Positions 23,567 to 63,186 of a stretch of DNA of 64,000 nt are shown piece after piece. The notes under the pieces were generated by a model. The model searched no databases. It had not been told where the DNA came from and saw only the letters and a program-made list of their open reading frames with translations. Origin of the DNA: Bacteroidales bacterium (GTDB lineage: Bacteria > Bacteroidota > Bacteroidia > Bacteroidales > UBA932); assembly GCA_017477245.1 (NCBI GenBank), contig JAFUWY010000036.1:1-64000 (forward strand), given 5' to 3'. Both the position numbers and the translations under genes were made by a program. Position 1 is the stretch's first letter. Each line of letters opens with the position of its first letter.

Positions 23567-23680
23567 GATTCGCCGGTCAAGCCGGCGAATGACGGAAACG
23601 GAAGCAGGCGAATGACAGAAATGGAAGCAGGCGAACGGCAAAGAAACCGGCGAATGACGGGAAGGTAGTAGGTGAAAGAC
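23567..23680 (+). repeat. Palindromic-head / 24-bp-tail repeat, intergenic copy
   Basis: A 29-bp head (23567-23595) holds the palindrome ATTCGCCGG / CCGGCGAAT with TCAAG in the middle and ends in GACGG. Three or four diverged tail units of about 22-24 bp follow, each ending in a GGCGAATGACGG-like core. The block fills almost all of the gap between the acyltransferase and the next glycosyltransferase. Five other loci in the window carry the same architecture. Confidence 0.85.
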
Positions 23681-23688
23681 GAGATAGT

Positions 23689-24918
23689 ATGAAAAGATTG
23701 CTGCAAATCAATCCGGTGGTGCGAGAGAATACCTCGACCGGGAAAATCATGCGCGAGCTCGGGGAGCTGGCGCAGGAGGCCGGGTGGGAGAGCTTTATCG
23801 CCTACAGCCGGGCACGGGACGGCGTGCCGCAGCACAGTTCGAAGCTGATTCCGGTCGGGAGCAAGTTCGACCTGCTGGTCCACTGGCTGGCCACGCGCCT
23901 GTTCGATGCCCATGGGCTCGCTTCGAAGCGGGCAACCCGGCAGTTGATCCGGCGCATCAAGGAGATCGATCCGGACGTCGTGCAGATCCACAACGTCCAC
24001 GGCTACTTCCTCCACTATCCCCTGCTGCTGGATTTCCTCGCGCAACGCGGCAAGCCTGTCGTCTGGACAGTCCACGATTGCTGGCTCTTCACGGGGCATT
24101 GCTACCATTATGCGGCGGCTGGCTGCGACAGGTGGCAGACGCATTGCCACGACTGCCCGCAGAAGCATGCCTTCCCGGCCAGCTGGCTGCTGGACCGCTC
24201 CGCCCGCAATTTCGAGGCGAAACGGCGGGCGCTGACGGCCCTGCCGGATTTCACGCTCGTGACTGTGTCCGACTGGATGCGGCGCGAGGTCGGGAAGTCT
24301 TTCCTGCAGGACGTTCCTTGCCGGGTTATCCACAACGGGATAGACCTGCATACCTTCCAGCCCGAACCGGATGCGGATGTCCGGCAGCGCTACGGCATCT
24401 CCACGGAGCACTACGTGCTGGCTGTCGCCAGCATCTGGCTGCCCCAGAAGGGGCTTCCGGATCTGGTCCGGCTGGCCGGCATGCTGCCTGCTGACGAAGG
24501 ATTGGTCCTGGTCGGCCGGATCAGCGAAGAACAGAAAGCAGAGTTCCCAGCCGGCGTCACCTTTATCCCCCGGACAGAAGATGCCAACACTCTCGCGGCG
24601 CTCTATTCCGGTGCCCTCGCCTTGCTGAACCCCACCTGGCAGGACAACTACCCGACCGTCAACCTGGAGGCCATCGCTTGTGGCACGCCCGTGATCACCT
24701 ACCGCACCGGCGGCAGCGTGGAGTCCATCACACCGGAGACGGGTTTTGTGGTGGAACAGGCTGACGTGGAGGGGCTGGTTTCCGCAATCCGGACGATCCG
24801 GACGAACGGGAAGGAGCATTACGGCGAGGCCTGCCGCGCCTTTGCCCTGCAACATTTTGACCGGAAAACCTGTTTCCAAGAATATATCCGTCTATATGAA
24901 AGTCTTGCAACTCGGTAA
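23689..24918 (+). CDS. Family 4 glycosyltransferase
   Basis: This 409-residue GT-B enzyme has an N-terminus RLLQINPVVRENTSTGKIM, followed by DVVQIHNVHGYFLHYP and VVWTVHDCWLFTGHCYHY. The last two are characteristic of a WcaC-like subgroup. The Cys/His-rich stretch CYHYAAAGCDRWQTHCHDCP (about residues 139-158) is also typical of it and may bind a metal. The C-terminal NYPTVNLEAIACGTPVITY is the donor-binding region. It follows a repeat block and overlaps the next gene by 23 bp. Confidence 0.9.
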   Translation: MKRLLQINPVVRENTSTGKIMRELGELAQEAGWESFIAYSRARDGVPQHSSKLIPVGSKFDLLVHWLATRLFDAHGLASKRATRQLIRRIKEIDPDVVQIHNVHGYFLHYPLLLDFLAQRGKPVVWTVHDCWLFTGHCYHYAAAGCDRWQTHCHDCPQKHAFPASWLLDRSARNFEAKRRALTALPDFTLVTVSDWMRREVGKSFLQDVPCRVIHNGIDLHTFQPEPDADVRQRYGISTEHYVLAVASIWLPQKGLPDLVRLAGMLPADEGLVLVGRISEEQKAEFPAGVTFIPRTEDANTLAALYSGALALLNPTWQDNYPTVNLEAIACGTPVITYRTGGSVESITPETGFVVEQADVEGLVSAIRTIRTNGKEHYGEACRAFALQHFDRKTCFQEYIRLYESLATR

Positions 24919-26050
24919 GTTCTACCCCATCCGCGGCGGCGTGGAGAAGGTGATGTGGGACCTGACCCGCGGTCTGTCGGCACGCGGCGTGGATTGCACC
25001 ATGCTATGCGCCACCCTCCCGGATGATCCGGTGGATGAGCCGGACCGGGATCGCTGCCGGGAGACAGCGGAAGGCCGGGAAATCCATTTCAACGACTACG
25101 GCCGGGTCGTCTGTGTACCGGCCCTCGCCAAGAAGGCTGCCACCATGCTCTCCCCCGCCATGATCCGCTGGCTGCGCCGCCATGCGGCAGCGTACGACCT
25201 CATCCACATCCACCACCCGGACCCGATGGCCGCGCTCGCCCTGCGGCTGAGCGGGTACAAGGGGCGCGTGGTCCTGCACTGGCACAGCGATATCCTCTCG
25301 CAGAAATTCCTGCTGGCGCTTTACCGTCCGCTCCAGCGATGGCTGGTCCGGCGCGCGGACCGGATCCTCGGCACGACGCCGGTCTATGTCCGGGAATCCC
25401 CGGACCTGCAGGGAGTGCAGGGGAAGGTCGGATACGTCCCGATCGGCATCGATCCGGTCATTTTCGAAGAAAATGCAGTCCGGGAACTGCGGAATCGGTA
25501 TAAAGGCCGGAAAATTGTTGTATCTTTGGGGCGATTAGTGCCTTATAAGGGCTATAGCACTTTGATAGATGCGGCTGCCCTGCTGGATGCGGACTACCAG
25601 GTCCTGATCGGCGGGATGGGGCCGCTGCGAGACAGCCTCCAGGCGCAGATTGATGCGCTCGGAATCCAGGACCGGGTACAACTGCTCGGTTACGTCCCGG
25701 ACGGGATGGTCCCGACGCTTTTCGGCGCTTGCGATGTGTTCGTGCTGAGTTCCGTGATGAAGACGGAGGCTTTCGGCATCGTGCAGATCGAGGCCATGTC
25801 CTGCGGACGGCCGGTCGTGGCGACGAAGATCCCCGGGTCCGGCACGGCCTGGGTCAACGAAGACGGCACGTCCGGACTGAATGTGAGGCCCTACGACGCC
25901 CCGGCCTTGGCGGACGCCATCCGGAAGGTTTGCTCCAACGGGGACACACATAGGAACTATGCCGAAGGTGCACAGCGGCGCTACAAAACGCTTTTTACCT
26001 TCAACAAAATGATAGACAGCGTATTAAGAGAATATGAAACACTTTGCTAA
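24896..26050 (+). CDS. Family 4 glycosyltransferase
   Basis: The ATG at 24896 gives the standard opening KVLQLGKFYPIRGGVEKVMW. A longer frame from 24746 would add 50 residues encoded inside the previous gene and is rejected. The 384-residue enzyme has IHIHHPDPMA, HWHSDILSQK, VSLGRLVPYKGYSTLIDA and EAFGIVQIEAMSCGRPVVAT (EX7E). It is the last glycosyltransferase before the export genes and overlaps wza by 17 bp. Confidence 0.92.
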   Translation: MKVLQLGKFYPIRGGVEKVMWDLTRGLSARGVDCTMLCATLPDDPVDEPDRDRCRETAEGREIHFNDYGRVVCVPALAKKAATMLSPAMIRWLRRHAAAYDLIHIHHPDPMAALALRLSGYKGRVVLHWHSDILSQKFLLALYRPLQRWLVRRADRILGTTPVYVRESPDLQGVQGKVGYVPIGIDPVIFEENAVRELRNRYKGRKIVVSLGRLVPYKGYSTLIDAAALLDADYQVLIGGMGPLRDSLQAQIDALGIQDRVQLLGYVPDGMVPTLFGACDVFVLSSVMKTEAFGIVQIEAMSCGRPVVATKIPGSGTAWVNEDGTSGLNVRPYDAPALADAIRKVCSNGDTHRNYAEGAQRRYKTLFTFNKMIDSVLREYETLC

Positions 26051-26807
26051 ATGGTTGATGCTGGCGGTCGTGATTTTGTCAGCATCCTGTTCGACTCCCG
26101 CGTATTACTCCTACCTGCGCGATATGGAGTATGAAACCCCCTATCTGGCCAAACCAGCCCCGGAACTCCGCCTGCAGGTCGAGGACAAGGTCAATATCCA
26201 AGTATTCAGCACAGTGGAAGATCTCGCCAAACCGTTTACGGCAAGTGTTGGTGCGGCAGATGGTAACGGGCAGTCCCTAGCCCCTTCCAGCAGCTATACG
26301 ATCGACAAGAACGGCAACATCGACTTCCCGGTGCTGGGTTCCCTCCATATCGAAGGCAAGACGCTCAACGAAGTCAAGGAAGAAATCGCCGGCGAGATCG
26401 TGCGCCTGGGCTATATCCGCGAGCCGCTCGTGAAGGTGGAAATGGAGAATTTCAACATCACCGTGATCGGCCAGATGGGGCAGCAGATCCTGCCGGTCGA
26501 GGGCAACAGCATCAATATACTGCAGGTACTGGCCCGCACCAGCGGTGCAAACGAATATACCAACCTCCAGGACGTGATGGTCATCCGCACCGAGGAGGGC
26601 GAGCGCGTCGCCCACTCCATCAACCTCCAGTCCAAGAGCCTCTTCGACTCGCCGGTCTACTACCTGCAGCAGAACGATGTCGTATATGTTAAACCACGCG
26701 GCTTGCGCCCATCTTCGACCATGACGGCTATCATGTCCGCGTTCACTCCGCTCATAACCGTCGGATCGACCCTATCTACCCTGATTCTCCTCTTAACCAG
26801 ACTCTAG
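26034..26807 (+). CDS. wza: Wza-type polysaccharide export lipoprotein
   Basis: This 257-residue protein has a lipoprotein signal (WLMLAVVILSASCST, Cys at about residue 19). The Poly_export region has LRLQVEDKVNIQVFSTVED and IDKNGNIDFPVLGSLHIEGK, and a SLBB-like part follows (FNITVIGQMGQQILPVEGNSINILQVLARTSG, quoted as FNITVIGQM and NILQVLARTSG). A hydrophobic C-terminal helix (LITVGSTLSTLILLLTRL) could cross the outer membrane. It should form the outer-membrane export channel and pair with the kinase encoded 3 bp downstream. Confidence 0.93.
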   Translation: MKHFAKWLMLAVVILSASCSTPAYYSYLRDMEYETPYLAKPAPELRLQVEDKVNIQVFSTVEDLAKPFTASVGAADGNGQSLAPSSSYTIDKNGNIDFPVLGSLHIEGKTLNEVKEEIAGEIVRLGYIREPLVKVEMENFNITVIGQMGQQILPVEGNSINILQVLARTSGANEYTNLQDVMVIRTEEGERVAHSINLQSKSLFDSPVYYLQQNDVVYVKPRGLRPSSTMTAIMSAFTPLITVGSTLSTLILLLTRL

Positions 26808-26810
26808 ACC

Positions 26811-29198
26811 ATGGCAGCCAAACAGAACAAAGCCCGCAACGAACAGATCAACCTGGTCGACCTGTTCTTCTTCCTGCTGAACCATTGGTATTGGTTTGTG
26901 ATTTGCATAGCACTGGCCGTCGGATACGCTTATTTCCGCTATTCGAAGAGTCCCTTGCTCTACCAGAGCAACGTAACGGTCATCATCAAGGACCCGAGCA
27001 ACAGCACCCGCTCGGTCCGCATGGATAACTACAGCAACATCATCAACACGGTCAGTATGACCAACGAGATGCTCCAATTGCGCTCCAAAACGATGATGTC
27101 CGAAGTGGTCCGTTCGCTGGATGCCGATGTCAACTATCTGGAACACATCAAACTACGCGATATCGAACTTTACCGGAATTCGCCGGTGCGCGTATTCTTC
27201 TCGCGCAACGAAGGGGAGGATCCCGGGACTTTCTCCATCAAGGTGACTCCTGTCGATGCCCGGACGATCCGGTTGGAGAGTGCCGCCGGCGTCCAGAACG
27301 TCTCCCTGGACGACACCCTCGCCCTAGGCAGTGGCAAAGTTGTCTTCCAACCTACAGCAGCCTACAATCCGTCAGCTTATGGCCGGGAGATCAAGATCCA
27401 GAAGATCCCGGTCCGCTCCGCAGCCGTAGGATTCCTGTCACGATTGAGCGTCACCCAGGATGGCAAGATTCTGACCATGAGCCAGAAGGACTATAATGTC
27501 CAGCGCGCCAGCGATATCCTCAGCACGCTCATCGAGAAATACAACGAGGATGCCGTCCGGGAGAAGAACCGCGTGGCCGTCAACACTGCTGCCTTCATCA
27601 ACGACCGCCTGGTCATCATCCAGGATGAACTCGGCGCCGTGGAGGATGACTTGGCCGAGTTCAAGAGTTCCCAGCGGCTCATGAACGTGGACGAGGCCGC
27701 TTCGCGCTACCTCAACGAAAGCCGCGGCTACAACGCCGAGATCGTCCAGCTGGAGACACGCATCTCGCTGGCAGAATACCTGCGCGACTACATCCAAGGA
27801 TCTGCCGGCTCCTACGAGATGATCCCGGTCAACACCGGCCTCAACGACAGCAACGCCGACAGGGCCATCAGCCAGTACAATGAGGCGATCCTGCGGCGCG
27901 AAAGGCTGGTCGCCGCCTCCAGTCTGTCCAGCCCGGCCGTCAAGCAGATCGAGACCAGCATCGCCTCCATGCGCCAGAATATCCTGGGCATCGTCCAGAA
28001 CCTGCTGACCAGCCTCAACGTGAAGCGGCAGGACCTCTCCGCCCAGGAGAACTCCTCCATCCAGAAATTTACCGCCATGCCAGCCAAGGCCAAGCAGATG
28101 CTCAACATCCAGCGCCAGCAGCAGATCAAGGAGTCGCTCTATATCTTCTTGCTCAACAAGCGCGAGGAGAATGCCCTCACCCAGGCCATGGTGGACAACA
28201 ATGCCCGCATGATCGATGCTCCCGAAGGTTCCTGGGCTCCGGTCTTCCCGCAGCGCAACCGCATGTTGCTGCTCGCGTTCCTGATCGGCCTGCTGGTGCC
28301 GGCCGTGATCCTGATTGCCTGGAAATTCCTCGACACCCGGGTCCGCACCCGCAAGGAACTCGAGGAGATGGTCTCCGTACCGGTCCTTGCTGAAATCCCG
28401 CTGGATCCTTCCGCCAAAAAGAATAAGAAGACCCGCAAGAAGAAAGATGCCAAGGAAGATGCAGCCTCCCCCATCGTCTACGATCCGGACTCCAAGGGCA
28501 TCTTCACCGAGTCCATGCGCATGATGTGCACCAACCTCGACTTCATGAAGCCCGAGGGCGTGGAGCATCCGGTCGTGGCCCTGACGTCCTTCGCCGTGTC
28601 CGCCGGCAAGACTTTCCTGACGGCCAACATGGCCCGCTGTCTCGCTGACGCCAAGAAGCGCGTGCTGCTGATGGATCTCGACCTGCGCAAGCGTACGATC
28701 TCCAAGTCCTTCGGCCTCAAGCACAAGACCACAGGTCTGTCCAACTACCTCTACGAAGAGCGCGTCCAGATCAAGGACATCATCCACAAGGATGTCGCCG
28801 AGGGCGTCGACTTCGTGCCGGCCGGTCACATCCCGCCCAACCCGACGGAGCTCCTGAGCCGCAAGCGCTTCGACGAACTGATCGCCGAACTCAAGAAAGA
28901 ATACGACTACATCCTGCTCGACAGCGTGCCTGTGCAGGTCGTCGCCGACCCGATGATCATCAGCCGCGTGGTGGACGTCAACCTGTTCGTGCTCCGCTCC
29001 GGCCAGCTCGACCGCCGCATCATGCCGCAGCTCGACGAACTGCAGGACGGCGGCCGCCTGAAGAACCTCGCCATCATCTTCAACGGATCCGAACTCAAGA
29101 AGGGCCTGGGCTACGGCGCCTACGGCTATGGTTACGGATATGGCTACGGTTACGGATACAGCTATGGCTACGGTTATGGCGAGAACAACGACGACTAG
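26811..29198 (+). CDS. wzc: Wzc-type polysaccharide co-polymerase and BY-kinase
   Basis: This 795-residue protein has a Wzz-type N-terminus with membrane spans at about 25-45 and 485-510, a periplasmic coiled-coil region between them, and a cytoplasmic kinase domain. Walker A is SAGKT (about 596-600), Walker A' is VLLMDLDLRKR and Walker B is YILLDSVPV. The C-terminus is a tyrosine cluster of Gly-Tyr repeats (about 765-790) for autophosphorylation. Cycling between phosphorylated and free forms is known to control capsule chain growth. It forms the export complex with Wza. No separate phosphatase of the low-molecular-weight type is next to it. Confidence 0.95.
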   Translation: MAAKQNKARNEQINLVDLFFFLLNHWYWFVICIALAVGYAYFRYSKSPLLYQSNVTVIIKDPSNSTRSVRMDNYSNIINTVSMTNEMLQLRSKTMMSEVVRSLDADVNYLEHIKLRDIELYRNSPVRVFFSRNEGEDPGTFSIKVTPVDARTIRLESAAGVQNVSLDDTLALGSGKVVFQPTAAYNPSAYGREIKIQKIPVRSAAVGFLSRLSVTQDGKILTMSQKDYNVQRASDILSTLIEKYNEDAVREKNRVAVNTAAFINDRLVIIQDELGAVEDDLAEFKSSQRLMNVDEAASRYLNESRGYNAEIVQLETRISLAEYLRDYIQGSAGSYEMIPVNTGLNDSNADRAISQYNEAILRRERLVAASSLSSPAVKQIETSIASMRQNILGIVQNLLTSLNVKRQDLSAQENSSIQKFTAMPAKAKQMLNIQRQQQIKESLYIFLLNKREENALTQAMVDNNARMIDAPEGSWAPVFPQRNRMLLLAFLIGLLVPAVILIAWKFLDTRVRTRKELEEMVSVPVLAEIPLDPSAKKNKKTRKKKDAKEDAASPIVYDPDSKGIFTESMRMMCTNLDFMKPEGVEHPVVALTSFAVSAGKTFLTANMARCLADAKKRVLLMDLDLRKRTISKSFGLKHKTTGLSNYLYEERVQIKDIIHKDVAEGVDFVPAGHIPPNPTELLSRKRFDELIAELKKEYDYILLDSVPVQVVADPMIISRVVDVNLFVLRSGQLDRRIMPQLDELQDGGRLKNLAIIFNGSELKKGLGYGAYGYGYGYGYGYGYSYGYGYGENNDD

Positions 29199-29207
29199 GA
29201 GAAAACC

Positions 29208-29612: not shown

Positions 29613-29626
29613 CCGGAGATGCCGGA

Positions 29627-36001: not shown

Positions 36002-36334
36002 ATGGAGAACACGGCTGAAAACGTGCGCGCACAGATGCGCAAGGGGATGCTCGAATACTGCATCCTGTCGCTGCTCAACAAGCGCGAGGCCTACGCTTCC
36101 TCGATCATCGAGGAGCTGAAGGCGGCGGGCATGATCGTCGTCGAAGGCACGCTCTACCCCCTGCTGATCCGTCAGAAGAACCAGGGGCTGCTGTCCTACC
36201 GCTGGGAAGAGTCCACGCAGGGCCCGCCCCGCAAGTATTACGTCATCACCGACAAGGGCCGCGAGCAGCTCGCCGAGATGGACGCGGCCTGGAGAGAACT
36301 CGTAGAGACCATCGAAACACTCAAGCGCGTATGA
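36002..36334 (+). CDS. PadR family transcriptional regulator
   Basis: This 110-residue protein has a winged-helix domain: MLEYCILSLLNKREAYASSI, the helix VEGTLYPLLIRQKNQGLL, then the wing PPRKYYVITDKGREQLAEM. This is standard for PadR. It is between two PspC genes and overlaps the second by 4 bp, so it probably controls this envelope-stress operon. PadR proteins often repress their own operon. No clear operator palindrome was found near the promoter at 35348-35379. Confidence 0.92.
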   Translation: MENTAENVRAQMRKGMLEYCILSLLNKREAYASSIIEELKAAGMIVVEGTLYPLLIRQKNQGLLSYRWEESTQGPPRKYYVITDKGREQLAEMDAAWRELVETIETLKRV

Positions 36335-37503
36335 AAGAAGTAGAAAGGGTCAGTCTGGGCGGCTACGCGTTCACGCTGGACGCCGACGCCGCGGCGCTCG
36401 CCGGAGAGTACCTCGGCGAGCTGGAGCGCCACTACGGCGGCCGCGAGGGCGGCGCCGAGATCCTCGAAGGGATCGAGGAGCGGATGGCCGAGCTGCTGCA
36501 CGAGAAGTGCGGCCGCGACGGCGTGGTGTCCCGCGCCGCCATCGAGGGGATCATCGCGATCCTGGGGCGGCCGGAGGAGATTGCGGAGGAGGGAGATTCG
36601 CCGGTCGAGCCGGCGAATGACGGAAGTGGCAACCCGGCAAACGACGGAACAGGACAGACAGCAAATGACGGGACAGGCAAGGCAAGAAGCCATTCCGGAA
36701 TTGACCCGGAATCTCCCCGCCAGAAACGCAAACTCTTCCGCGACGTGTCCGACAAGGTCGTCGCGGGCGTGTGCAGCGGACTGGGGGCTTATTTCCAGAC
36801 GGACAAGGTGTTCTTCCGGCTCCTGTTCGCCATCGGCACGGCAGTCACGTTCTTCGGGATCGGCTGGCACCGGGGATTCTCCATGTCGCTCCAGCTCATC
36901 TTCCCGGTCTTGTATGTCATTCTCTGGATCTGCATGCCGCCGGCGAAGACCGTCCGCCAGCGCTGGGAGCAGCGCGGCGAGGACGGGACGATTCTCGGCA
37001 TCCAGCAGCGCGTCGAGAGCGGCGCGGGCGAGATGGGCGAAGCCATCCGTTCCGTCGGGCAGTCCAATGCCTGGGGCGAGATCGGCCGGATCCTTGAGAA
37101 GGTCATCGGCGTCTTGCTGCTGGTGGTCGGGTTCGGCGGGTTGTTCGCCGGCGGCGTCGCGCTCTTCGGATCCGGCGCGCTGAGCCATCAGGGCTGGATC
37201 GGCGGGAACCGGGGTTTCCTGGGTCTGGGCCAGCTCTATGACGAAGGCATGCGCGAACTGTACGACGAGGCGCCGGCCATCGCCGACGCCCTCATGCAGC
37301 CCTGGGTCCAGGGCGTATTGATCCTGGTGGTCCTCCTCCCCTTCCTGGGCATCCTCTATGGCGCCCTGCAGATGCTCTTCGGCTTCAAGTCGCCGAAATG
37401 GCACCCGGGGCTGGTGATCTTCATCCTCTGGCTGATGTCCATCATCGCCGCGGGAATCCTGATCTTCACCGGGGCGGCCACAAACGAGTGGCTTACAATC
37501 TGA
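36331..37503 (+). CDS. PspC domain membrane protein with an in-frame repeat-element insertion
   Basis: This 390-residue protein has an N-terminal module like that of the first PspC protein (VSLGGYAFTLDADAAALAGE, then ILEGIEERMAELL). A low-complexity stretch encoded by the repeat element follows (about residues 89-128). Then come the PspC domain (KRKLFRDVSDKVVAGVCSGL, GAYFQTD) and about five membrane spans. The stretch reads as 8-residue repeats of the NDGSGNPA / NDGTGQTA kind. It lies between the two domains, where an extra loop should do no harm. The stop overlaps the convergent epimerase gene by 11 bp. Confidence 0.85.
   Translation: MKEVERVSLGGYAFTLDADAAALAGEYLGELERHYGGREGGAEILEGIEERMAELLHEKCGRDGVVSRAAIEGIIAILGRPEEIAEEGDSPVEPANDGSGNPANDGTGQTANDGTGKARSHSGIDPESPRQKRKLFRDVSDKVVAGVCSGLGAYFQTDKVFFRLLFAIGTAVTFFGIGWHRGFSMSLQLIFPVLYVILWICMPPAKTVRQRWEQRGEDGTILGIQQRVESGAGEMGEAIRSVGQSNAWGEIGRILEKVIGVLLLVVGFGGLFAGGVALFGSGALSHQGWIGGNRGFLGLGQLYDEGMRELYDEAPAIADALMQPWVQGVLILVVLLPFLGILYGALQMLFGFKSPKWHPGLVIFILWLMSIIAAGILIFTGAATNEWLTI
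36595..36714 (+). repeat. Palindromic-head / 24-bp-tail repeat inside the PspC gene
   Basis: The 29-bp head (36595-36623) has stems ATTCGCCGG / CCGGCGAAT. Two exact 24-bp tail units follow (36624-36647, 36648-36671) and then a less regular one. The block closes with a head of the second stem type in the opposite orientation: CATTCCGG, then TTGACCCGGAATC, at 36691-36713. The whole block of about 120 bp keeps the reading frame open. Confidence 0.88.
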
Positions 37504-38638: not shown

Positions 38639-38644
38639 ACTTAC

Positions 38645-38837
38645 CATCATTCGCCGGCTTTTCGTTTCGTCATTCGCCGACTTTTCGTTTCGTCATTCGC
38701 CGGCTTTTGTTTCCATCTTTCGACAACTTGCCGTTTCCGTCATTCGCCGGATTACCGATTCCGTCATTCGCCGGATTACCATTTCCGTCATTCGCCGGCT
38801 TACCATCTCCGTCATTCGCCGGCTTGACCGGCGAATC
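38645..38837 (-). repeat. Palindromic-head / 24-bp-tail repeat array, longest copy
   Basis: Read on the minus strand, the 29-bp head is at 38837-38809 and is followed by seven tail units of 23-24 bp. One of the seven is degenerate. The others share a CCGGCGAATGACGG-like core separated by 10 variable bases. The array occupies nearly the whole space upstream of the epimerase gene and ends 6 bp before its start codon. Confidence 0.9.
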
Positions 38838-38884: not shown

Positions 38885-41110
38885 ATGTCCAATACCGTCC
38901 GAAAGAATTTCCCCGTGACCGGGATGGGCTGCGCAGCCTGCGTCGCCCGTGTCCAGAAGGCGCTCCAGCAGAGCGCCGGTGTCCACGAGGCCGAGGTCAG
39001 CCTCGCCTCCAACTCCGCCCGGATCGACTACGATCCCGCCGTCACCTCCCCTGCCGCCCTGCGCCAGAGCGTGCAGGATGCCGGCTACGACCTCATCGTC
39101 CCGGAAGGGGACGACGAAGACGACTCGGACCTAAGCGAAGAAGAATCGCTGGAGGCGCGGGCCGAGGAGGCGCATGAGAGCGCCTACCGCGGCCTGCGCC
39201 GCGACGCGCTGCTCGACATCGTCCTCGCCGTCCTCGTGATGGCCGTCGGCATGGCGGCGCCGGATTTCCCGGGCAAGGGCTGGGTGCTCGCCGCGCTCGC
39301 CGCCGTCAGCGTGGGCTGGTGCGGGCGGCGCTTCTTCGGCGTCGCCTGGAAACAGGCACGCCACGGCCACGCCGGGATGGATACGCTCGTGGCCCTGTCC
39401 GTGGGCATTTCCTTCCTGTTCAGCCTGTTCAACCTCCTGTTCCCGCAGGTGTGGACCTCGCGCGGGCTGGAGGCCGGACTCTATTTTGAGTCTTCGGCGA
39501 TGATCGTCGCCTTCATCCTGCTGGGGCGCCTGCTGGAGGAGCGCGCCAAGCACCGCACCACGCAGGCGGTGCGGGCGCTGACCGGCCTGCAGCCGCAGCG
39601 CCGTGGCATCCGCCGCGGGGACCTCGTGCAGGTGCTCCCCGGCGAGCGGATCCCTGCTGACGGCACGGTCGAGGGAGGCGCTTCCTACGTGGACGAGAGC
39701 ATGCTCACGGGCGAGCCCATCGCCGTCTTCAAGGAGGCGGGCTCCGCCGTCTACACCGGCACGCTCAACGGCCAGGGCGCCCTGCAGGTGCGCGCCACGC
39801 AGGTGGGCCGCGACACGATGCTCTCCGCCATCATCCGGATGGTGCAGGACGCGCAGGGCAGCAAGGCCCGCATCCAGCACACCGTGGACAAGGTCTGCGC
39901 GTGGTTCGTGCCGGCGGTCATCGTCATCGCCTTGCTTGCCCTGCTCGGATGGACCTTCCTGACGCCCGACGGGTTCGTGCGCGGCCTGCTGGCCTGCGTC
40001 ACCGTGCTCGTCGTGGCCTGTCCCTGCTCGCTGGGCCTCGCTACGCCCACGGCGCTCACCGCCGGCATCGGCCGGGGCGCCTCGCGCGGCATCCTGATCC
40101 GTGACGCCGACAGCCTGCAGGTCGCCGCCCGCATCGACACCGTGGTGCTCGACAAGACCGGTACCGTCACGAGCGGCCACCCCGAGGTCGTCGAGCTGCG
40201 CTGGCTCTCGGACGACCCTTCCCTCCCCCCGCTGCTGCGGGAAATGGAATCCCGCTCCGGCCACCCGCTGGGCGCAGCGATCGCCTCAGCAATCGCCGCG
40301 ACCGCCTCGACCTCTCCGTCATGCGCCGGCCTGGCCCCTTCGTCATTCGCCGGCTCGACCGGCGAATCCCCCGAACCCGAATCCGTCACCGCCCTCCTCG
40401 GAGAAGGGGTCCAGGCGGTCTGGCACGGCAAGACCTACCACGTCGGCAAACACACCCCCGAACGCTTCGAGGTGGCCGAGCGCTGGCGCGAGGCCGGCCG
40501 CACCGTCGTCTACTTCCACGACGGGGAGCGGCTGCTGGCCGCCATCGCCATTGCCGACGCCGTCAAGCCGGACTCCGCCGATGCCATCCGCACGTTAGCA
40601 CAACAAGGTATCACCGTCCATCTGCTGACCGGCGACCACGCCGCTTCGGCGGCTGCCGTGGCGCGCGAAGTCGGCATCGCCGACGTGCGCGCCGACGCCC
40701 TGCCGGCCGACAAAGTCGAGTATATCAAGAAGTTGCAATCCGACGGGCACTGCGTCGCCATGGTCGGAGACGGCATCAACGACAGCGCCGCCCTCGCCCA
40801 GGCCAACCTCGGCGTGGCTATGGGCGGCGGCAGCGACATCGCCATCCACACGGCGATGGCCACGATCGTCTCGTCGAGCCTGTCGAAACTGCCGGAGCTC
40901 GTCTCGCTCTCGCGCCGCACGATCCGCATCATCCGCGAGAACCTCGGCTGGGCCTTCCTCTACAACCTCATCGCCATCCCCGTGGCGACGGGCGTGCTGT
41001 CCGGCGCCCTCGGCTTCGTGCTCAACCCGATGGTCGCTGCAGCCGCCATGGCCTGCAGCTCGGTCCTGGTCGTCTCGAACAGCCTCCGCCTCCTCCTGCC
41101 CCGCAAATAA
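38885..41110 (+). CDS. copA: Heavy-metal (Cu+) translocating P1B-type ATPase with in-frame repeat insertion
   Basis: This 741-residue protein has one N-terminal metal-binding domain (GMGCAACVARV, Cys16 and Cys19) and eight predicted spans with the CPC motif (VVACPCSLGLATPTAL, about 379-381). The phosphorylation site is DKTGT (about 422), the HP motif GHPLG, and the hinge GDGINDS (about 629). CPC plus one HMA domain indicates Cu+ or Ag+ export. Between the HP motif and the GEGV loop of the nucleotide-binding domain lies a segment (about 478-495) encoded by the dispersed repeat (SSFAGSTGESP). No copper chaperone gene is adjacent. Confidence 0.95.
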   Translation: MSNTVRKNFPVTGMGCAACVARVQKALQQSAGVHEAEVSLASNSARIDYDPAVTSPAALRQSVQDAGYDLIVPEGDDEDDSDLSEEESLEARAEEAHESAYRGLRRDALLDIVLAVLVMAVGMAAPDFPGKGWVLAALAAVSVGWCGRRFFGVAWKQARHGHAGMDTLVALSVGISFLFSLFNLLFPQVWTSRGLEAGLYFESSAMIVAFILLGRLLEERAKHRTTQAVRALTGLQPQRRGIRRGDLVQVLPGERIPADGTVEGGASYVDESMLTGEPIAVFKEAGSAVYTGTLNGQGALQVRATQVGRDTMLSAIIRMVQDAQGSKARIQHTVDKVCAWFVPAVIVIALLALLGWTFLTPDGFVRGLLACVTVLVVACPCSLGLATPTALTAGIGRGASRGILIRDADSLQVAARIDTVVLDKTGTVTSGHPEVVELRWLSDDPSLPPLLREMESRSGHPLGAAIASAIAATASTSPSCAGLAPSSFAGSTGESPEPESVTALLGEGVQAVWHGKTYHVGKHTPERFEVAERWREAGRTVVYFHDGERLLAAIAIADAVKPDSADAIRTLAQQGITVHLLTGDHAASAAAVAREVGIADVRADALPADKVEYIKKLQSDGHCVAMVGDGINDSAALAQANLGVAMGGGSDIAIHTAMATIVSSSLSKLPELVSLSRRTIRIIRENLGWAFLYNLIAIPVATGVLSGALGFVLNPMVAAAAMACSSVLVVSNSLRLLLPRK
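40316..40368 (-). repeat. Palindromic-head / 24-bp-tail repeat inside copA
   Basis: On the minus strand the head (40368-40341) has stems ATTCGCCGG / CCGGCGAAT with TCGAG in the middle, and one tail unit (40340-40316) follows. The insertion is read in frame as part of copA. Confidence 0.85.
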
Positions 41111-42290: not shown

Positions 42291-42443
42291 GTTGCTGGGG
42301 GCGGAGAAGGGCGCCAGCGCCCCTGGCAGCAACGAAAATCGGTTGCCGAGGGCAGAGAAGGGCGCCAGCGCCCCTGGCAGCAGAGAAAACCGCTTGCCGG
42401 GGGCGGAGAAGGGCGCCAGCGCCCCTGGCAGCAACGAAAACCG
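42291..42443 (+). repeat. 51-bp minisatellite, three units
   Basis: Units begin at 42291, 42342 and 42393. Each contains GGGCGCCAGCGCCCCTGGCAG, of which GGGCGCCAGCGCCC is self-complementary, and a GAAAA-like spacer. A much longer array of the same 51-bp unit lies at 50651-51314. Confidence 0.88.
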
Positions 42444-42484
42444 CTTGCCTTCATTGTCAGGTGGACAAGGTGGGATTTCAGAGG

Positions 42485-45622: not shown

Positions 45623-45623
45623 G

Positions 45624-50650: not shown

Positions 50651-51314
50651 CTCGCCAGGGGCAAAAAATACCCACAGCGCCCCTGGCAGCAGGAAAAAGC
50701 AGTTGCCAAGGGCGGAGAAAGGCCTCAGCGCCCCTGACGGCAGGAAAAAACAGTTACCGAGGGCGGAAAAGGCCCTCAGCGCCCCTAGCAGCGAGAAAAA
50801 GCAGTTGCCGAGGGCGAAGAAGGTCCTCAGCGCCCCTGGCAGCAGAAAAAAAACAGTTACCGAGGGCGGAGAAGGGCCCCAGTGCCCCTGGCGGCAGGAA
50901 AAAGCAGTTGCCGAGGGCGAAGAAGGCCATCAGCGCCCCTAGCAGCGGGAAAAAGCTGTTGCCGAGGGCGGAAAAGGCCCTCAGCGCCCCTGGCGGCAGG
51001 AAAAAGCAGTTGCCGAGGGCAGAGAAGGCCCTCTGCGCCCCTGGCAGCAGAAATAAACAGTTGCCAAGGGCAGAGAAGGCCCTCAGCGCCCCTGGCAGCG
51101 GGAAAAAGCAGTTGCCGAGGGCGAAGAAGGCCATCAGCGCCCCTGGCAGCAGAAATAAACAGTTGCCGAGGGCGGAAAAGGCCCTCAGCGCCCCTGGCAG
51201 CGAGAAAAAGCTGTTGCCGAGGGCGGAAAAGGCCCTCAGCGCCCCTGACGGCAGGAAAAAGCAGTTGCCAAGGGCGGAGAAAGGCCTCAGCGCCCCTGGC
51301 GGCAGGGATAACAG
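50651..51314 (+). repeat. 51-bp minisatellite, about thirteen units
   Basis: After a degenerate first unit, starts lie at 50702, 50753, 50804, 50856, 50907, 50958, 51009, 51060, 51111, 51162, 51213 and 51264. They are 51 bp apart except for one 52-bp unit. The core is GTTGCCGAGGGCGGA, then CCTCAGCGCCCCTGGCAGC and an A-rich spacer. The same unit occurs three times at 42291-42443. Confidence 0.92.
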
Positions 51315-51452: not shown

Positions 51453-51571
51453 CGGCAGAAGGGGGACGACGGCAGAAGGGGGACGACGGCAGAAAGGGGA
51501 CGACGGCAGCAAGGGGACGACGGCAGAAGGGGGACGACGGCAGAAGGGGGACGACGGCAGAAGGGGGACGG
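51453..51571 (+). repeat. 17-bp tandem repeat, about seven units
   Basis: GGCAGAAGGGGGACGAC repeats with period 17 and few changes. A run of purine-rich sequence leads into it. It ends about 25 bp before the tRNA terminator hairpin. Confidence 0.85.
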
Positions 51572-57350: not shown

Positions 57351-57362
57351 GGCCTACGCGAA

Positions 57363-57389: not shown

Positions 57390-57393
57390 GAAG

Positions 57394-57478
57394 CGGAGGC
57401 GGAGGGATTCGAACCCCCGGTACGTTGCCGTACAACAGTTTTCAAGACTGCCGCCATCGACCACTCGGCCACACCTCC
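57394..57478 (-). tRNA. tRNA-Ser (TGA)
   Basis: The acceptor GGAGGTG pairs with CGCCTCC (one G-T pair) and the discriminator is G. The loop CTTGAAA gives anticodon TGA. The long variable arm TGTACGGCAACGTACC and the T-arm are the same as in the serine tRNA at 51624. CCA is not encoded. Confidence 0.96.
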
Positions 57479-57490
57479 GGAAAGGGGCTG

Positions 57491-57521
57491 CAAAGATAGC
57501 AATAATTCGATTCCGGGTCAA
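57491..57521 (-). promoter_or_regulatory. Promoter of tRNA-Ser(TGA), -33 element inside a dispersed repeat
   Basis: On the minus strand TATCTTTG (57498-57491) is the -7 box and TTG (57521-57519) lies 20 nt upstream. That TTG is the loop of the palindromic repeat head at 57509-57535, so the repeat contributes part of the promoter. Confidence 0.75.
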
Positions 57522-57535
57522 GCCCGGAATGACGG
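57509..57535 (+). repeat. Palindromic repeat head of the second stem type
   Basis: GATTCCGGG, TCAAG, CCCGGAAT and GACGG form one head without tail units. The stem differs from the common form (ATTCGCCGG / CCGGCGAAT) by changes that keep every base pair. It ends one base before the stop codon of lspA. Confidence 0.85.
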
Positions 57536-58087: not shown

Positions 58088-58088
58088 A

Positions 58089-58487: not shown

Positions 58488-58499
58488 GACTATGAAAGG

Positions 58500-61400
58500 T
58501 TAGTTATTATTTTTAGTGACTTTGATCCGGATATAGGTATCTTCCCATTCGACCTGCGCGGCCTCCTGCGGGGCTTCGGAGAGGGGCCGCTGCTCCAGCG
58601 AGACGGACAGGGTCTGGGCGGAGACGTAGGCGGCGTGCTCAGAGAGCGCCTCGGCGATGGCCTCGCCGGCGGCGCCTTCGGCGTAGATGACGGTGCTGAT
58701 CCGGTCGGTGACCTCGAACCCGCTCTCCTTGCGGAGGTTCTGGATCGGGTGGATCAGCTCGCGCGCAACGCCTTCACGGAGCAGCTCGGGGGTCTGGATG
58801 ATGTCCAGCGCCACGGTCAGGGCGCCGTCGGAAGCCACGAGCCAGCCCGGCATGTCCTCGGAGTGGATCTCGTAGTCCTCCTTGCGGAGCGTGACGTCGC
58901 CGGACGGGAGCGCGAGGACGTAGTCACCCTCCGCGCGCTCGATGGCGGCGATCTCCTCCTGGGAGAGCTGCCCGAAGGCGGCGGCGATCTCCTTCATCTG
59001 CTTGCCGTAGATCTTGCCCAGGGTCTTGAAGTTGGGCTTGATCTTCTTGGTGATGATGCCGGTGGTGTCGTGCAGGAACTCGATCTGCTTGACGTTGACC
59101 TCCGTGAGGAAGATGTCGCTCACGCGCTGGATGTGCTCCCTGACCGTGTCGTCAAGCACGGGCACGAGCACCTTGGCGAGGGGCTTGCGGACGTTGATGC
59201 CGACCTTCTTGCGCAGGGCGAGCACCATCGAGGAAGCCTTCTGGGCGAAGCTCATGCTCTCCTCGAGGCCCTTGTCCACGAGCGTGGGCTCGAACTGCGG
59301 CATCGGGCAGTAGTGCACGGAGTCCGCCCCGGGGACGAGGTCCAGCCACAGGCGGTCCATGAAGAACGGGGCGATCGGAGCGCCCAGCAGGGCGATCCCC
59401 TTGAGCACCTCGTAGAGGGTCTGGTAGGCGGAGAGCTTGTCCTCGGTCATGCCCGCGCCCCAGAGGCGCTTCTTGTTGAGGCGGATGTACCAGTTGGACA
59501 GGTCGTCGCAGACGAAATCCTGCACCAGGCGGCCCGCCAGCGTGATGTCGTAGTCCTCGTAGGCGGCCACGACCCCCTGCACCAGGGTATTGAGCCGGCT
59601 GATGATCCAGCGGTCGAACATCGGACGGTGCTCGTAGGGCACGGCCTCGGCCGCCGGGTCGAACTTGTCGATGTTGGCGTAGAGCGCGAAGACGGAGTAG
59701 GAGTTGTAGAGCGTGCCGAAGAACTTGCGGCGCACTTCCTCCACGCCGGCCTCGTCGAACTTGAGGTTGTCCCAGGGCTGGGCGTTGGTCATCATGTACC
59801 AGCGCAGGGCGTCGGGACCGTATTTGTCCATGGCCTGGAAGGGATCGACGGCGTTGCCGAGGCGCTTGCTCATCTTCTCCCCCTTCTTGTCGAGCACCAG
59901 GCCGTTGGAGATCACGCGCCTGAAGGCGGGCGTGCCGCTCACCATCGTGTGGATGGCGTGCAGGGTGTAGAACCACCCGCGCGTCTGGTCCACGCCTTCG
60001 GCGATGAAGTCGGCCGTGGCGCCGAAGTCCGGGGTGTCGATGCCACGCAGGCCCGTCTGGGCATAGGGCATCGCGCCGGAGTCGAACCACACGTCGATGA
60101 GGTCGGTCTCGCGGGTCATCCTGCGGCCCGTCGGGCTCACGAGGAAAATCTGGTCCACGTAGGGACGGTGGAGGTCGATCCGGTCGTAGTTGGCCTTGGA
60201 CATGTCGGCGGGGTCGAATCCGCGCTCGCGCAGCGGATTGGACGCCATCACGCCTGCGGCGACGGCCTTGTCGATCTGCTCATAAAGCTCCTTCACGCTG
60301 CCGATGCAGATCTCCTCCTTGCCGTCTTCGGTGCGCCAGACCGGGAGCGGGGTGCCCCAGTAGCGGCTGCGGCTGAGGTTCCAGTCCTGGATGTTCTCCA
60401 GCCACTTGCCGAAGCGGCCCGTGCCCGTGGACTCGGGCTTCCAGGTGATCTGCTCGTTGAGCGCCATCATCTGCTCGCGCACGGCCGTTGTCTTGATGAA
60501 CCAGCTGTCCAGCGGGTAGTAGAGGACGGGCTTGTCGGTGCGCCAGCAGTGCGGGTAGGAGTGGACGTGCTTCTCGATGCGGAAGGCCTTACCGGCCGCC
60601 TTGAGCATGACGCAGAGGTCGATGTCCAGGGTCGGGGCGTCCGCGGGAAGCGAACTGTCGTAAGCGTTCTTGACATAGCGGCCGGACCACTCCTTGTAGT
60701 CCGGGCTCACGTGCGTGGCGACGTACGCCGGGTCGAGGTCCTCGAGGCGGCAGAAGCGGCCCTGGAGGTCCACCTGCGCCTGCGGATCGCCGTTGCGGTC
60801 GATGACCTGCAGGGCGGCGATGCCCGCGGCGCGGCCCACCTTGGCGTCGTCGGCGCCGAAGGTCGGCGCGATGTGGACGATGCCCGTACCCTCCTCCGTG
60901 CTGACATAGTCGCCGGGAATCACGCGGAAGGCGTCCCCGTCGGGACGGAACCAGGGGATGAGCTGCTCGTAGCGCAGCCCCACGAGGTCGCGGCCCTTGA
61001 CGCTGCCGGGGAGCACCTCGAAGGGGACCTTGCCGCCAAAGAGGGCCGGGACCAGCGCCTCGGCCACGATGTACGTGGCGGGCGCGCCGGTGTACGGGTT
61101 CGCGGAGCGGACCTTGACGTAGTCGATGTTCGGGCCCACGCAGAGCGCCGTGTTGGACGGGAGGGTCCAGGGGGTCGTGGTCCAGGCGAGGATGTAGAGG
61201 TCTTCCTCGCCCAGGACCTTGAACTGCACGGTGCAGGTCGTGTCCTTGACGTCGCGGTAGCAGCCGGGCTGGTTGAGCTCGTGCGTGCTCAGGCCCGTGC
61301 CGGCGGCCGGGGAATACGGCTGGATGCTCTTGCCCTTGTAGAGCAGGCCCTTGCCGTAGATATCCTTGAGGAGGTACCAGAGGGTCTCGATGTAGCGGTT

Positions 61401-61856
61401 GTCGTAGGTGATGTACGGATCGTCCATGTCGACCCAGTAGCCGATGCGCTCGGTGAGGGTGCGCCATTCGGCGGTATACTTCATCACCTCCTCGCGGCAG
61501 GTCCGGTTGTAGTCCTCCACGGAGATCTTGGTGCCGATGTCTTCCTTGGTGATGCCGAGCTTCTTCTCCACGCCCAGCTCGACCGGCAGGCCGTGGGTGT
61601 CCCAGCCCGCGCGGCGGCGGACCTTGTAGCCCGACTGCGTCTTATAACGGCAGATGGCGTCCTTGATGGAGCGCGCCATCACGTGGTGGATGCCCGGCAT
61701 GCCGTTGGCGGAGGGAGGGCCCTCGAAGAAGACGAACTCGGGCGCGCCCTCACGGAGCGCCAGCGAGCGTGCGAACGCATGGTTCTTCTGCCAGCGTTCA
61801 AGTACTTCTTTCCCCACGGAGACCAGGTCCAGGCCGTTATATTCGTGAAATGTCAT
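58500..61856 (-). CDS. ileS: Isoleucyl-tRNA synthetase
   Basis: This 1118-residue class I synthetase is of the longer, eukaryote-like type. FFEGPPSANGMPGIHHVMAR is the HIGH region (about 46-64), and GYKVRRRAGWDTHGLPVELG and FYTLHAIHTMVSG are further family blocks. KMSKRLGNAVDPFQAMDKYG (about 662) is the KMSKS loop. The editing domain lies between about 190 and 400. A C-terminal anticodon-binding region and a beta-rich tail complete it. It charges tRNA-Ile. It is the first gene of the operon with the DksA-like and LspA genes. Confidence 0.98.
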   Translation of the reverse strand: MTFHEYNGLDLVSVGKEVLERWQKNHAFARSLALREGAPEFVFFEGPPSANGMPGIHHVMARSIKDAICRYKTQSGYKVRRRAGWDTHGLPVELGVEKKLGITKEDIGTKISVEDYNRTCREEVMKYTAEWRTLTERIGYWVDMDDPYITYDNRYIETLWYLLKDIYGKGLLYKGKSIQPYSPAAGTGLSTHELNQPGCYRDVKDTTCTVQFKVLGEEDLYILAWTTTPWTLPSNTALCVGPNIDYVKVRSANPYTGAPATYIVAEALVPALFGGKVPFEVLPGSVKGRDLVGLRYEQLIPWFRPDGDAFRVIPGDYVSTEEGTGIVHIAPTFGADDAKVGRAAGIAALQVIDRNGDPQAQVDLQGRFCRLEDLDPAYVATHVSPDYKEWSGRYVKNAYDSSLPADAPTLDIDLCVMLKAAGKAFRIEKHVHSYPHCWRTDKPVLYYPLDSWFIKTTAVREQMMALNEQITWKPESTGTGRFGKWLENIQDWNLSRSRYWGTPLPVWRTEDGKEEICIGSVKELYEQIDKAVAAGVMASNPLRERGFDPADMSKANYDRIDLHRPYVDQIFLVSPTGRRMTRETDLIDVWFDSGAMPYAQTGLRGIDTPDFGATADFIAEGVDQTRGWFYTLHAIHTMVSGTPAFRRVISNGLVLDKKGEKMSKRLGNAVDPFQAMDKYGPDALRWYMMTNAQPWDNLKFDEAGVEEVRRKFFGTLYNSYSVFALYANIDKFDPAAEAVPYEHRPMFDRWIISRLNTLVQGVVAAYEDYDITLAGRLVQDFVCDDLSNWYIRLNKKRLWGAGMTEDKLSAYQTLYEVLKGIALLGAPIAPFFMDRLWLDLVPGADSVHYCPMPQFEPTLVDKGLEESMSFAQKASSMVLALRKKVGINVRKPLAKVLVPVLDDTVREHIQRVSDIFLTEVNVKQIEFLHDTTGIITKKIKPNFKTLGKIYGKQMKEIAAAFGQLSQEEIAAIERAEGDYVLALPSGDVTLRKEDYEIHSEDMPGWLVASDGALTVALDIIQTPELLREGVARELIHPIQNLRKESGFEVTDRISTVIYAEGAAGEAIAEALSEHAAYVSAQTLSVSLEQRPLSEAPQEAAQVEWEDTYIRIKVTKNNN

Positions 61857-61891
61857 ATTTTTTGCCTAATTTTGCAATTGTTTTTAGCCTA

Positions 61892-61922
61892 CAAATTTAG
61901 CGATTTCTAAACATTTAACCAA
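61892..61922 (-). promoter_or_regulatory. Promoter of the ileS operon
   Basis: On the minus strand TTG (61922-61920) and TAAATTTG (61899-61892) are spaced by 20 nt. The predicted start of transcription is about 30 nt before the ileS ATG. On the plus strand TAATTTTG (61867-61874) may serve cvpA. Confidence 0.78.
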
Positions 61923-61928
61923 AAGGAT

Positions 61929-62441
61929 ATGGCGATTCTGGATATCATTCTCCTCCTTTGCTTCGTGCCCGCGATCGTCAGCGGCATCTCCAAGGGCTTC
62001 GTCAAGCAGGTGGTCGATCTGGCCGCGATCCTGGTGGCCGCCTGGGCCGCCTTCCATTTCTCGACCGTCCTGGGCGGCTGGCTGGGCCGGTACATCACCC
62101 TCGAGCCGTCCATCCTGAACGTCATCAGCTTCGTGCTGATCATCATCGTGGCCGCCGTGCTGCTCAACCTGGTCGGCACCCTGGTCACCAAGGCCCTCCA
62201 GGCCGTGTCGCTGGGCTTCGTCAACCGCCTGCTCGGCCTGGTGTTCGCCGTGCTCAAGGTGGCGGTCGTCCTGGGCTTGCTGATCCTGCTGTTCGAGACG
62301 CTCAACAGCACCCTGCATATCCTCAAACCCGAGTCCACGGCCGACGCCGTGGTCTACAATGCGCTGAAGGAAGCCGCGGAGAAGGTCTTCCCCATCCTCA
62401 AAACCTTTGTCACGGGCGAACCCGCCGCTGCCAATGCCTAG
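61929..62441 (+). CDS. CvpA family membrane protein
   Basis: This 170-residue protein has four spans. It begins ILDIILLLCFVPAIVSGISKGFVKQ, quoted here as ILDIILLLCF and GISKGFVKQV, and shows VLGGWLGRYI and LGFVNRLLGLVFAVLKVAVV. This is the usual CvpA layout. The role of CvpA is still debated, with links to envelope integrity. It diverges from ileS and overlaps tsaB by 8 bp. Confidence 0.88.
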   Translation: MAILDIILLLCFVPAIVSGISKGFVKQVVDLAAILVAAWAAFHFSTVLGGWLGRYITLEPSILNVISFVLIIIVAAVLLNLVGTLVTKALQAVSLGFVNRLLGLVFAVLKVAVVLGLLILLFETLNSTLHILKPESTADAVVYNALKEAAEKVFPILKTFVTGEPAAANA

Positions 62442-63129
62442 AAGAATCCTCCTGATCGAAACCTCGACCTCGCTCTGCTCGGTGGCCCTCGCCGAGGACG
62501 GAGCCGTCACCGCGCAGCGGGAGAGCACGGAGCCCCGTGCCCACGCTGCCCTTACCGCCCCCTTTGTCAAGGAAGTCCTGGACGGGCGCGGCCTGCGCGC
62601 CACCGACCTCGACGCCGTCTGCGTGAGCGCCGGGCCGGGGTCCTACACCGGCCTGCGCGTGGGCGTGTCCACGGCCAAGGGCATCTGCTTCGCCGCCGGG
62701 ATCCCCCTGCTGTCGGTCGGCACGCTCGACGTGCTGGTGAGCCAGGCCCGCGCCGAGGGGCTGGTCCCCGAGGGCTGCCGGGCCGTCATCCCGATGATCG
62801 ACGCCCGGCGGATGGAAGTCTACACGGCCGTCTACTCCCCGGCGGGAGAGCGCCTGACGGAGGTGGAGCCGCGCGTGATCGACGGCGACAGCTTCCGCGA
62901 GGAGCGGGCCGCCGGCCCGGTGCTCTTCATCGGAGACGGCGCGGAGAAGTGCCGCGCGGCGCTGGACGCCCCCGGCATGCGCTTCGTGCAGACGTGCCCC
63001 CGCGCCGCGGCGATGCTCGCCCCGGCCCTGCGGGAGTTCGAAGCCGGCCATTTCCGCGACACGGCGTATTTCGAGCCGTTCTACCTCAAGGATTTCGTCG
63101 CCACGGTCAGCCGGAAGAAACTCTTCTAG
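62434..63129 (+). CDS. tsaB: tRNA threonylcarbamoyladenosine biosynthesis protein TsaB
   Basis: The ATG at 62434 gives PRRILLIETSTSLCSVALAE, and the upstream frame from 62407 overlaps cvpA more than needed. The 231-residue protein has VCVSAGPGSYTGLRVGVSTA (about 60-80), FAAGIPLLSVGTLD and IPMIDARRMEVYTAVYSP, the standard TsaB blocks. It acts with TsaD and TsaE in making t6A37 of ANN-decoding tRNAs. Neither partner is in the window. Confidence 0.95.
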   Translation: MPRRILLIETSTSLCSVALAEDGAVTAQRESTEPRAHAALTAPFVKEVLDGRGLRATDLDAVCVSAGPGSYTGLRVGVSTAKGICFAAGIPLLSVGTLDVLVSQARAEGLVPEGCRAVIPMIDARRMEVYTAVYSPAGERLTEVEPRVIDGDSFREERAAGPVLFIGDGAEKCRAALDAPGMRFVQTCPRAAAMLAPALREFEAGHFRDTAYFEPFYLKDFVATVSRKKLF

Positions 63130-63137
63130 GCCCGGAC

Positions 63138-63186
63138 CGTCATCCCCGGCTTCGGCCATTTCCCCATTCCGGGCCTGACCCAGACC
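63138..63186 (-). repeat. Diverged palindromic-head repeat, second stem type with one tail unit
   Basis: CATTCCGGGCCTGACCC (63164-63180) followed by AGACC matches the reverse-oriented second-type head with a few changes. The 24 bp before it (CCGTCATCCCCGGC and on) match a tail unit. It lies between tsaB and the next gene. Confidence 0.6.

Follow-up and report, generated by a model that had tools for sequence, protein, structure and literature searches.

Dispersed palindromic repeats in the genome of a Bacteroidales bacterium (lineage UBA932) are CGTC-tagged repetitive extragenic palindromes (CGTC-REPs), a known class of which they form a new set of members, and part of them carry a tail that consists of tandem copies of the tag-side half of the palindromic unit (here designated the head). 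The polarity of these tails is tied to the element and not to its surroundings, and growth of the tails by local tandem copying is well supported. The window analysed comprised positions 1 to 64,000 of contig JAFUWY010000036.1 (assembly GCA_017477245.1), designated C41 of genome G000, which totals 2.38 Mb in 48 contigs, and the comparison was extended to genomes of the same genus, to a phylum sample and to public genome contigs.

Heads and tails in the window

In total, five palindromic heads with a GACG tag were identified by reading and scanning of the window, at 23567(+), 36595(+), 38837(-), 40368(-) and 57509(+). The first four possess a version-1 stem (ATTCGCCGG/CCGGCGAAT) and the last a version-2 stem (ATTCCGGG/CCCGGAAT); all five have a TCAAG or TCGAG loop and GACG beside GAAT. 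A sequence-only reading of the window had proposed six loci of one architecture, of which five proved to have a perfect palindrome with a GACG/CGTC tag, while the window scan revealed no palindromic head within 63138-63186, and this locus was dropped from the family. The second stem version, which that reading had placed at 57509, 36691 and 63164, was retained at 57509 and was found in decayed form at 36691, and the assignment at 63164 fell with the locus just mentioned.

Palindromes of this kind are expected by chance at 0.4 per window, with a maximum of 3 (Markov-1 simulation of 30 windows). Furthermore, the core CCGGCGAATGACGG was observed 15 times in the window with ≤2 mismatches as against 1.2 expected, a count that none of 100 shuffles reached. 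The heads and tails of the window are as follows.

23567..23595, + strand: CGTC-REP head, version 1 (palindrome 23568-23590, tag GACGG 23591-23595)
23596..23682, + strand: four degenerate tail units with spacings of 23, 23, 19 and 22, non-coding (sequence reading); six bases separate the array from the start codon (ATG, 23689) of a glycosyltransferase gene
36595..36623, + strand: CGTC-REP head, version 1, within PspC-domain gene 36331-37503 (in-frame translation DSPVEPANDG)
36624..36671, + strand: two 24-bp tail units, in frame (SGNPANDGTGQTANDG; sequence and reading frame)
36692..36712, - strand: decayed version-2 palindrome with one mismatch, GACG missing and tag lost (GGC), facing the array (palindrome scan)
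38644..38808, - strand: seven tail units with spacings of 24, 24, 24, 24, 23, 23 and 23 (sequence), between the starts of divergent genes
38809..38837, - strand: CGTC-REP head, version 1 (palindrome 38814-38836, tag CCGTC 38809-38813)
40316..40339, - strand: a single tail unit of 24 bp that keeps the reading frame of the ATPase gene (sequence and frame)
40340..40368, - strand: CGTC-REP head, version 1, tag GACGA, antisense in heavy-metal P-type ATPase gene 38885-41110 (palindrome scan and gene)
57509..57535, + strand: CGTC-REP head, version 2 (ATTCCGGG/CCCGGAAT), tail-less (palindrome scan)

The heads at 23567, 36595, 38837, 40368 and 57509 are thus accompanied by 4, 2, 7, 1 and 0 tail units, respectively (the last count by reading), with a unit length of ~23-24 bp, in agreement with the zero to seven units of about 24 bp described earlier. 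Every tail in the window runs off the GACG side, away from the head, and some arrays run with their genes and some against them.

The heads are CGTC-REPs

CGTC-tagged REPs were defined by Di Nocera, De Gregorio and Rocco in 2013 as elements with a terminal, unpaired tag of CGTC (or TGTC/CCTC), a stem of 8-9 bp with AT at its base and a loop of 4-5 nt, known from five phyla, Bacteroidetes among them, and lacking an associated transposase as of that year (PMC3733652). The present heads, with a 9- or 8-bp stem that begins with AT, a 5-nt loop (6-nt loops such as TCGGAG were also found outside the window) and the tag, agree with the available text of that paper in tag, stem and loop length, AT base, dispersal, intragenic copies, occurrence in Bacteroidetes and lack of an associated transposase. 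Across all loci, part of which were selected on the tag, GAC was present on exactly one side in 293 of 298 perfect ATTC..GAAT palindromes.

The organisation of the elements differs from that published. Head-tail (HT) CGTC dimers are described as negligible and grouped elements as rare, most copies being singletons or head-head (HH) dimers (PMC3733652), whereas 23 of 63 heads in G000 carry right-only head-to-tail half-units. The heads are nevertheless kept in the CGTC-REP class because PMC3733652, as far as its available text goes, presents the rarity of HT dimers as family organisation and not as part of the head definition. Tag-side half-unit tails are not described in that text, the main text of which contains zero occurrences of words starting with half, duplicat, slippage or truncated. 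The same source assigns the Rickettsia palindromic elements RPE-4 and RPE-6, together with Neisseria dRS3, to the CGTC elements, the head class seen here; intragenic copies in R. conorii resemble the heads described here, whereas a one-sided half-unit tail is not mentioned there for either group. The palindromic amphipathic repeat coding sequence of Mollicutes and other microbes (PMC2996958) likewise represents palindromic coding tandem repeats, to judge from its description.

Pairing of the stem was assessed in 56 distinct GATTC-N13-GAATGACG strings, which were not preselected on inner pairing. In these strings, 84.8 % of the inner stem cells were paired, compared with 62.2 % on average and 68.8 % at most in 1000 arm shuffles, and at best 64.3 % when the partner was slid by one column. 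As pairing lies well above the shuffles, the stems are compensated and the fold is kept despite sequence change, as had been surmised from the two stem versions of the window.

Copies across genomes and phyla

The version-1 core was found at 81 places in G000 with ≤1 mismatch (backward control, 3) and the version-2 core at 41 (backward control, 5), so that the proposal of one dispersed family is borne out by many copies beyond the six loci from which it was drawn. Reading of the fetched loci yielded 63 heads under one rule and 65 under another (~65). A head-only pattern gave 30-68 matches in each of six sister genomes, with 234 matches overall. When a right (i.e. tag-side) tail was included in the pattern, 71 matches were obtained in 16 of 81 genomes of the genus, G000 included, with a backward control of 0. 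Of 247 genomes in the phylum sample, only two matched head plus tail, one of them G000 itself; the trait is therefore patchy.

Heads with tails occur in many phyla and are no peculiarity of Bacteroidota. At least 120 stretches with this pattern were found in public genome contigs, and a clear palindromic head was present in 54 of the 80 stretches listed. According to record titles, from which phyla were assigned, these 54 derive from Bacteroidota (20), gamma- or betaproteobacteria (7), Campylobacterota (6), Spirochaetota (5), Bacillota (4), Fibrobacterota (3), alphaproteobacteria (2) and unnamed sources (2), with one each from Nomurabacteria, Chloroflexota, Actinomycetota, Zixiibacteriota and Bdellovibrionota; most public stretches are metagenome assemblies, among which single cases may be mis-binned. 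The remaining 26 of the 80 had no head (7-nt arms, ≤1 mismatch) and were left out, some being bulged TTCGCTTCGCTC-type hairpins and some chance-like satellites. The sequence-only reading had regarded the head-plus-tail form as unfamiliar in Bacteroidota, which does not apply to the head, a published class already recorded in Bacteroidetes, nor is the form confined to that phylum. It does apply to the tail: no description of a half-unit tail on CGTC-REPs was found in the literature searched, most subscription papers being outside that search, and the tails thus represent a widespread one-sided organisation not found described there.

Tails are polar with respect to the tag

In a symmetric 9-mer test of the 63 heads of G000, 23 carried a copy on the right only, 3 on the left only, 2 on both sides and 35 on neither. 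When the five left matches were read, two proved to belong to a tandem of whole heads on contig C4 (period 40 bp) and the others to be isolated short matches. Among 75 heads at public loci that did not match the search pattern, 17 had a right copy, 3 a left copy and 55 none, with the three left cases reading as neighbouring elements or chance. A similar bias was observed among 90 heads of six sister species (30 loci laid out and 60 regions picked down the printed list of the 234 head-only matches): 21 possess a tag-side copy, one of which (L398) is a second whole head, 0 have an opposite-side copy (binomial p ~1e-6), and 69 are tail-less. That tails point one way from the head therefore holds for the whole window and, elsewhere, almost without exception.

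A less clear outcome was obtained for 23 heads at genus loci outside the pattern, some of them brought in by the left-tail pattern itself, with 4 right-only, 3 left-only, 3 on both sides and 13 without a copy; the left cases derive from genome G032, where whole heads occur in tandem. A looser left-tail pattern gave 10 matches in 5 of the 81 genus genomes. In a pool of 293 tagged palindromes, partly chosen for right tails, a copy was present on the tag side only in 131, on the wrong side only in 9, on both sides in 12 and on neither in 141.

Two external sources of polarity were considered and rejected. Arrays of opposite orientation lie 2-8 kb apart (C27:12766-/17186+, C28:8279+/16508- and C41:36595+/38837-), which argues against replication fork direction unless an origin or terminus is situated between them. 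Microhomology of ≥4 nt was about equally available to the right (41) and to the left (39) of 85 unexpanded heads. Neither fork direction nor local homology thus readily explains the polarity, and the tag is the clearest remaining asymmetric feature.

Arrays grow by local tandem copying

The period of a tail is near-constant within an array and differs between arrays. Outside the window, unit lengths ranged from 18 to 26 bp, the range that the search pattern allowed. In G000, 29 arrays with 89 tails were scored, each with one head and its own near-constant period; scoring was lenient (≤5 mismatches in 13), and the C4 whole-head tandem was omitted. The tail on contig C7 measures 31 or 24. Both stem versions were shown to build arrays, most often from their own arm. 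In clear cases, the unit extends from close to the hairpin apex to a few bases past the tag, and some array junctions lie in microhomology, with L095 as a clean example (GTCA common to loop and flank). Among 137 distinct head-plus-tail arrays from G000, the genus and public contigs, for which the pattern required a right tail at a distance of 18-26 bp, 54 keep their period over one full unit or more, indicating that the spacer is a copy of the local flank, as expected from the tandem duplication of the tail proposed earlier.

Comparison of related sites is consistent with growth after the head was in place. The 38.6-kb array of the window is absent, head and tail alike, at the orthologous spacer of three relatives (G008, G070 and G015), a comparison of occupied and empty sites that the sequence-only reading had called for; for the other two intragenic window arrays, the corresponding stretches are divergent in these relatives, and the repeats are missing from them. 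Two paralogous heads, C26:197416 (0 tails) and C26:196396 (4 tails), have left flanks that are 93 % identical over 103 nt. Orthologous heads behind a Y1 gene carry five tails in G000 (C27) and three in G008 (C5), by reading, with the outer units in common and the extra units of G000 in the head-near part, carrying the loop of the head. In 20 arrays, the first tail was more like the head than the last in 11, less in 3 and equal in 6, and in a second test with 44 arrays the head-adjacent unit was more head-like in 11 and less in 2, with 31 ties (p 0.022).

Groups of heads with a common left flank of 73 to at least 150 nt were also observed in G000 (C26, C36, C27 and C32/C33/C37), with no BLAST match to the right of the head across a group except in the identical C32/C33 pair; three groups lack a right match and a fourth has a partial one. 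Common left flanks that end at the tag are not claimed as proof of one-ended transposition, as the C26 group has a short common right motif.

Arrays within genes

Eleven arrays of G000 lie within Pfam-supported genes (sigma-54 regulator, GH2-type, Porin_10, MFS, HU-CCDC81, GH92, RmlD, PspC, P-type ATPase, TruA and OMP_b-brl_2). The period is a multiple of three in 11 of these 11, compared with 3 or 4 of 15 other arrays (Fisher p 5e-5 to 2e-4); with the C7 tail taken as 31, the count falls to 10 of 11 (p 0.001 to 0.002). Genic and other arrays were classed by hand, and a C2 array with a period of 24 and a long open frame, which had no Pfam match, was left out. The C44 array has a period of 18. 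Read on either strand, genic arrays yield PSFAG/TGESP, PANDG or QARNDG repeats. This frame-keeping shows purifying selection on the genes, not a use for the tail. At L030 (C30), a five-tail CGTC-REP array is inserted in the N-terminal region of an RmlD-like reductase without a break in the frame, soon after the start ...VTGANGQLG.

Proposed tag-dependent copying and its alternatives

Taken together, the arrays are probably best read as CGTC-REPs enlarged by local copying that depends on the tag, a reading in which we place reasonable, if far from complete, confidence. Heads are scattered through the genome, genes included, and once a head is in place, the stretch that starts at about the hairpin apex and runs over the tag-side arm and the tag into a few flank bases is copied in tandem beside it, with later rounds, some of them near the head, lengthening the array. 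Polarity would be set by a tag-recognising protein, which would nick the tagged strand next to the tag. DNA synthesis primed from the resulting 3' end would run back over tag and arm as far as the hairpin, where it would halt, and religation would add a single half-unit. By analogy with TnpA-REP, such nicking at the CGTC tag, followed by priming back to the apex, would give both the observed unit and its polarity, and tag-dependent nicking is the best, if unproven, account of the latter.

TnpA-REP is described as cutting beside GTAG REPs in a tag-dependent manner that leaves a 3'OH, with an inverted REP not being processed (PMC8266576). According to the available parts of PMC8266576 and PMC6006769, GTAG REPs with TnpA-REP/RAYT resemble the present elements in combining a hairpin with a 4-nt tag that gives asymmetry, whereas their tag is GTAG and not CGTC and their bacterial interspersed mosaic elements (BIMEs) pair inverted REPs. 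An HUH/Y1 enzyme of the TnpA-REP kind would be the most natural candidate for nicking. Four weak matches to PF01797, in proteins of ~290-310 aa, were detected in G000, and 23 of 31 genomes, as well as all six head-rich ones, had matches; Y1_Tnp-like proteins of the genus are ~300 aa. While tnpA-REP genes are often flanked by their own REPs (PMC8266576, PMC6006769, as available), these ~300-aa Y1 proteins are not systematically head-flanked. At L234 (G000:C27) and L268 (G008:C5), a CGTC-REP array lies 73-74 nt downstream of a Y1_Tnp-like gene, with a further hairpin in the interval, and at L439 (G052:C32) such a gene is flanked on both sides by CGTC-REP heads, 134 and 376 nt away. A dedicated CGTC-REP transposase reported after 2013 did not turn up in the literature searched.

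Several observations weigh against tag-dependent copying. No enzyme was tied to the heads among the Y1 loci examined: a head lies close by at 2 of 40 Y1 loci (one orthologous pair) in genomes taken without regard to heads, and in nine genomes with heads, 4 of 26 Y1_Tnp-like genes have one within 500 nt (two of them the same orthologous pair, orientation mixed), the two sets having nine loci in common. The RAYT/Y1 gene to which the sequence-only reading had pointed is thus represented by Y1-like genes with no systematic link to heads, and a RAYT/Y1 transposase as cognate enzyme, i.e. a REPtron, is not established. No clear cut-site dinucleotide was apparent, with a top-strand A|G fitting 22 of 35 array junctions, most of them with wide intervals. 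Full-unit periodicity was lacking in 83 of the 137 arrays, for which decay or another route is possible, and the head-near gradient is weak, its two tests sharing arrays. Opposite copies are not wholly absent, as seen from the wrong-side-only and two-sided copies in the pool (9 and 12 of 293) and from three left-pattern matches in G032 that look like real left copies, and tag-less palindromes (5 of 298) are too few to serve as a natural control of the role of the tag. In addition, the tail arms at L309/L413 (G338:C45), G052:C155 and C169 differ from their own head and resemble another stem version, which is not given by simple local copying and points to conversion from element to element or to recurrent mutation.

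Ordinary replication slippage or unequal crossing-over at the hairpin, with no dedicated enzyme and with one-sidedness as a by-product of local sequence, would account for arrays that resemble ordinary tandem duplications with flank-derived spacers, and nothing special would be needed once a first tail exists. This explanation, which we regard as rather unlikely though the strongest competitor, accounts for lengthening but not for the polarity of the first tail, given the equal microhomology on both sides, the opposite arrays 2-8 kb apart and the rarity of opposite-side copies (0 of 90; 3 left-only of 63). A tail that arises during insertion of the element, as an aberrant transposition product later expanded by slippage, appears less probable still. 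One-ended transposition would give polarity, and the C26/C36, C27 and C32/C33 with C37 heads, alike to the left and without a BLAST match to the right, are what it would leave; yet many heads have no tail (69 of 90), the number of tails at a given head changes between two paralogues and between two orthologues, and the short common right-flank motif of the C26 group, identified by reading, means that the boundary is not clean.

Selection of tails as functional tandem sites or protein linkers is, in our view, highly improbable, even though arrays within Pfam-supported genes keep the frame and the spacing is often near two helical turns (within the 18-26 bp that the pattern allowed). Periods differ between arrays and many arrays are degenerate; arrays are found in spacers and, on either strand, within genes unrelated to one another, none of the three relatives compared has any of the three window arrays tested, and the frame-keeping reflects purifying selection on the genes only.

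Other repeats in the window

A separate tandem repeat family with a unit of ~51 bp and an internal GGGCGCCAGCGCCCC-like palindrome occupies 42292-42449 and 50671-51306. A 21-mer of this family (≤2 mismatches) had 11 matches in the genome, on C10, C12, C38, C41 and C48, as against 0 in the control. The latter ~51-bp array is adjoined at 51453-51570 by ~7 copies of a 17-bp unit with 96 % matches.

Implications

We tentatively suggest, with less confidence than for the reading of the arrays themselves, that CGTC-REPs in many phyla may be substrates of a tag-dependent, strand-specific nick-and-copy activity that adds half-units, representing directional minisatellite growth and supplying proteins with in-frame repeats, for instance (PSFAG)n, PANDG and QARNDG. 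Tag-side tails in arrays of either orientation would then constitute a genomic footprint of a tag-reading activity, which makes the existence of a CGTC-REP enzyme a testable question. Such arrays would be encountered in rumen Bacteroidales wherever minisatellites or linker repeats are annotated, and they show a simple route from a dispersed palindrome to a protein tandem repeat, for example in RmlD, the sigma-54 regulator, GH92, TruA and the P-type ATPase.

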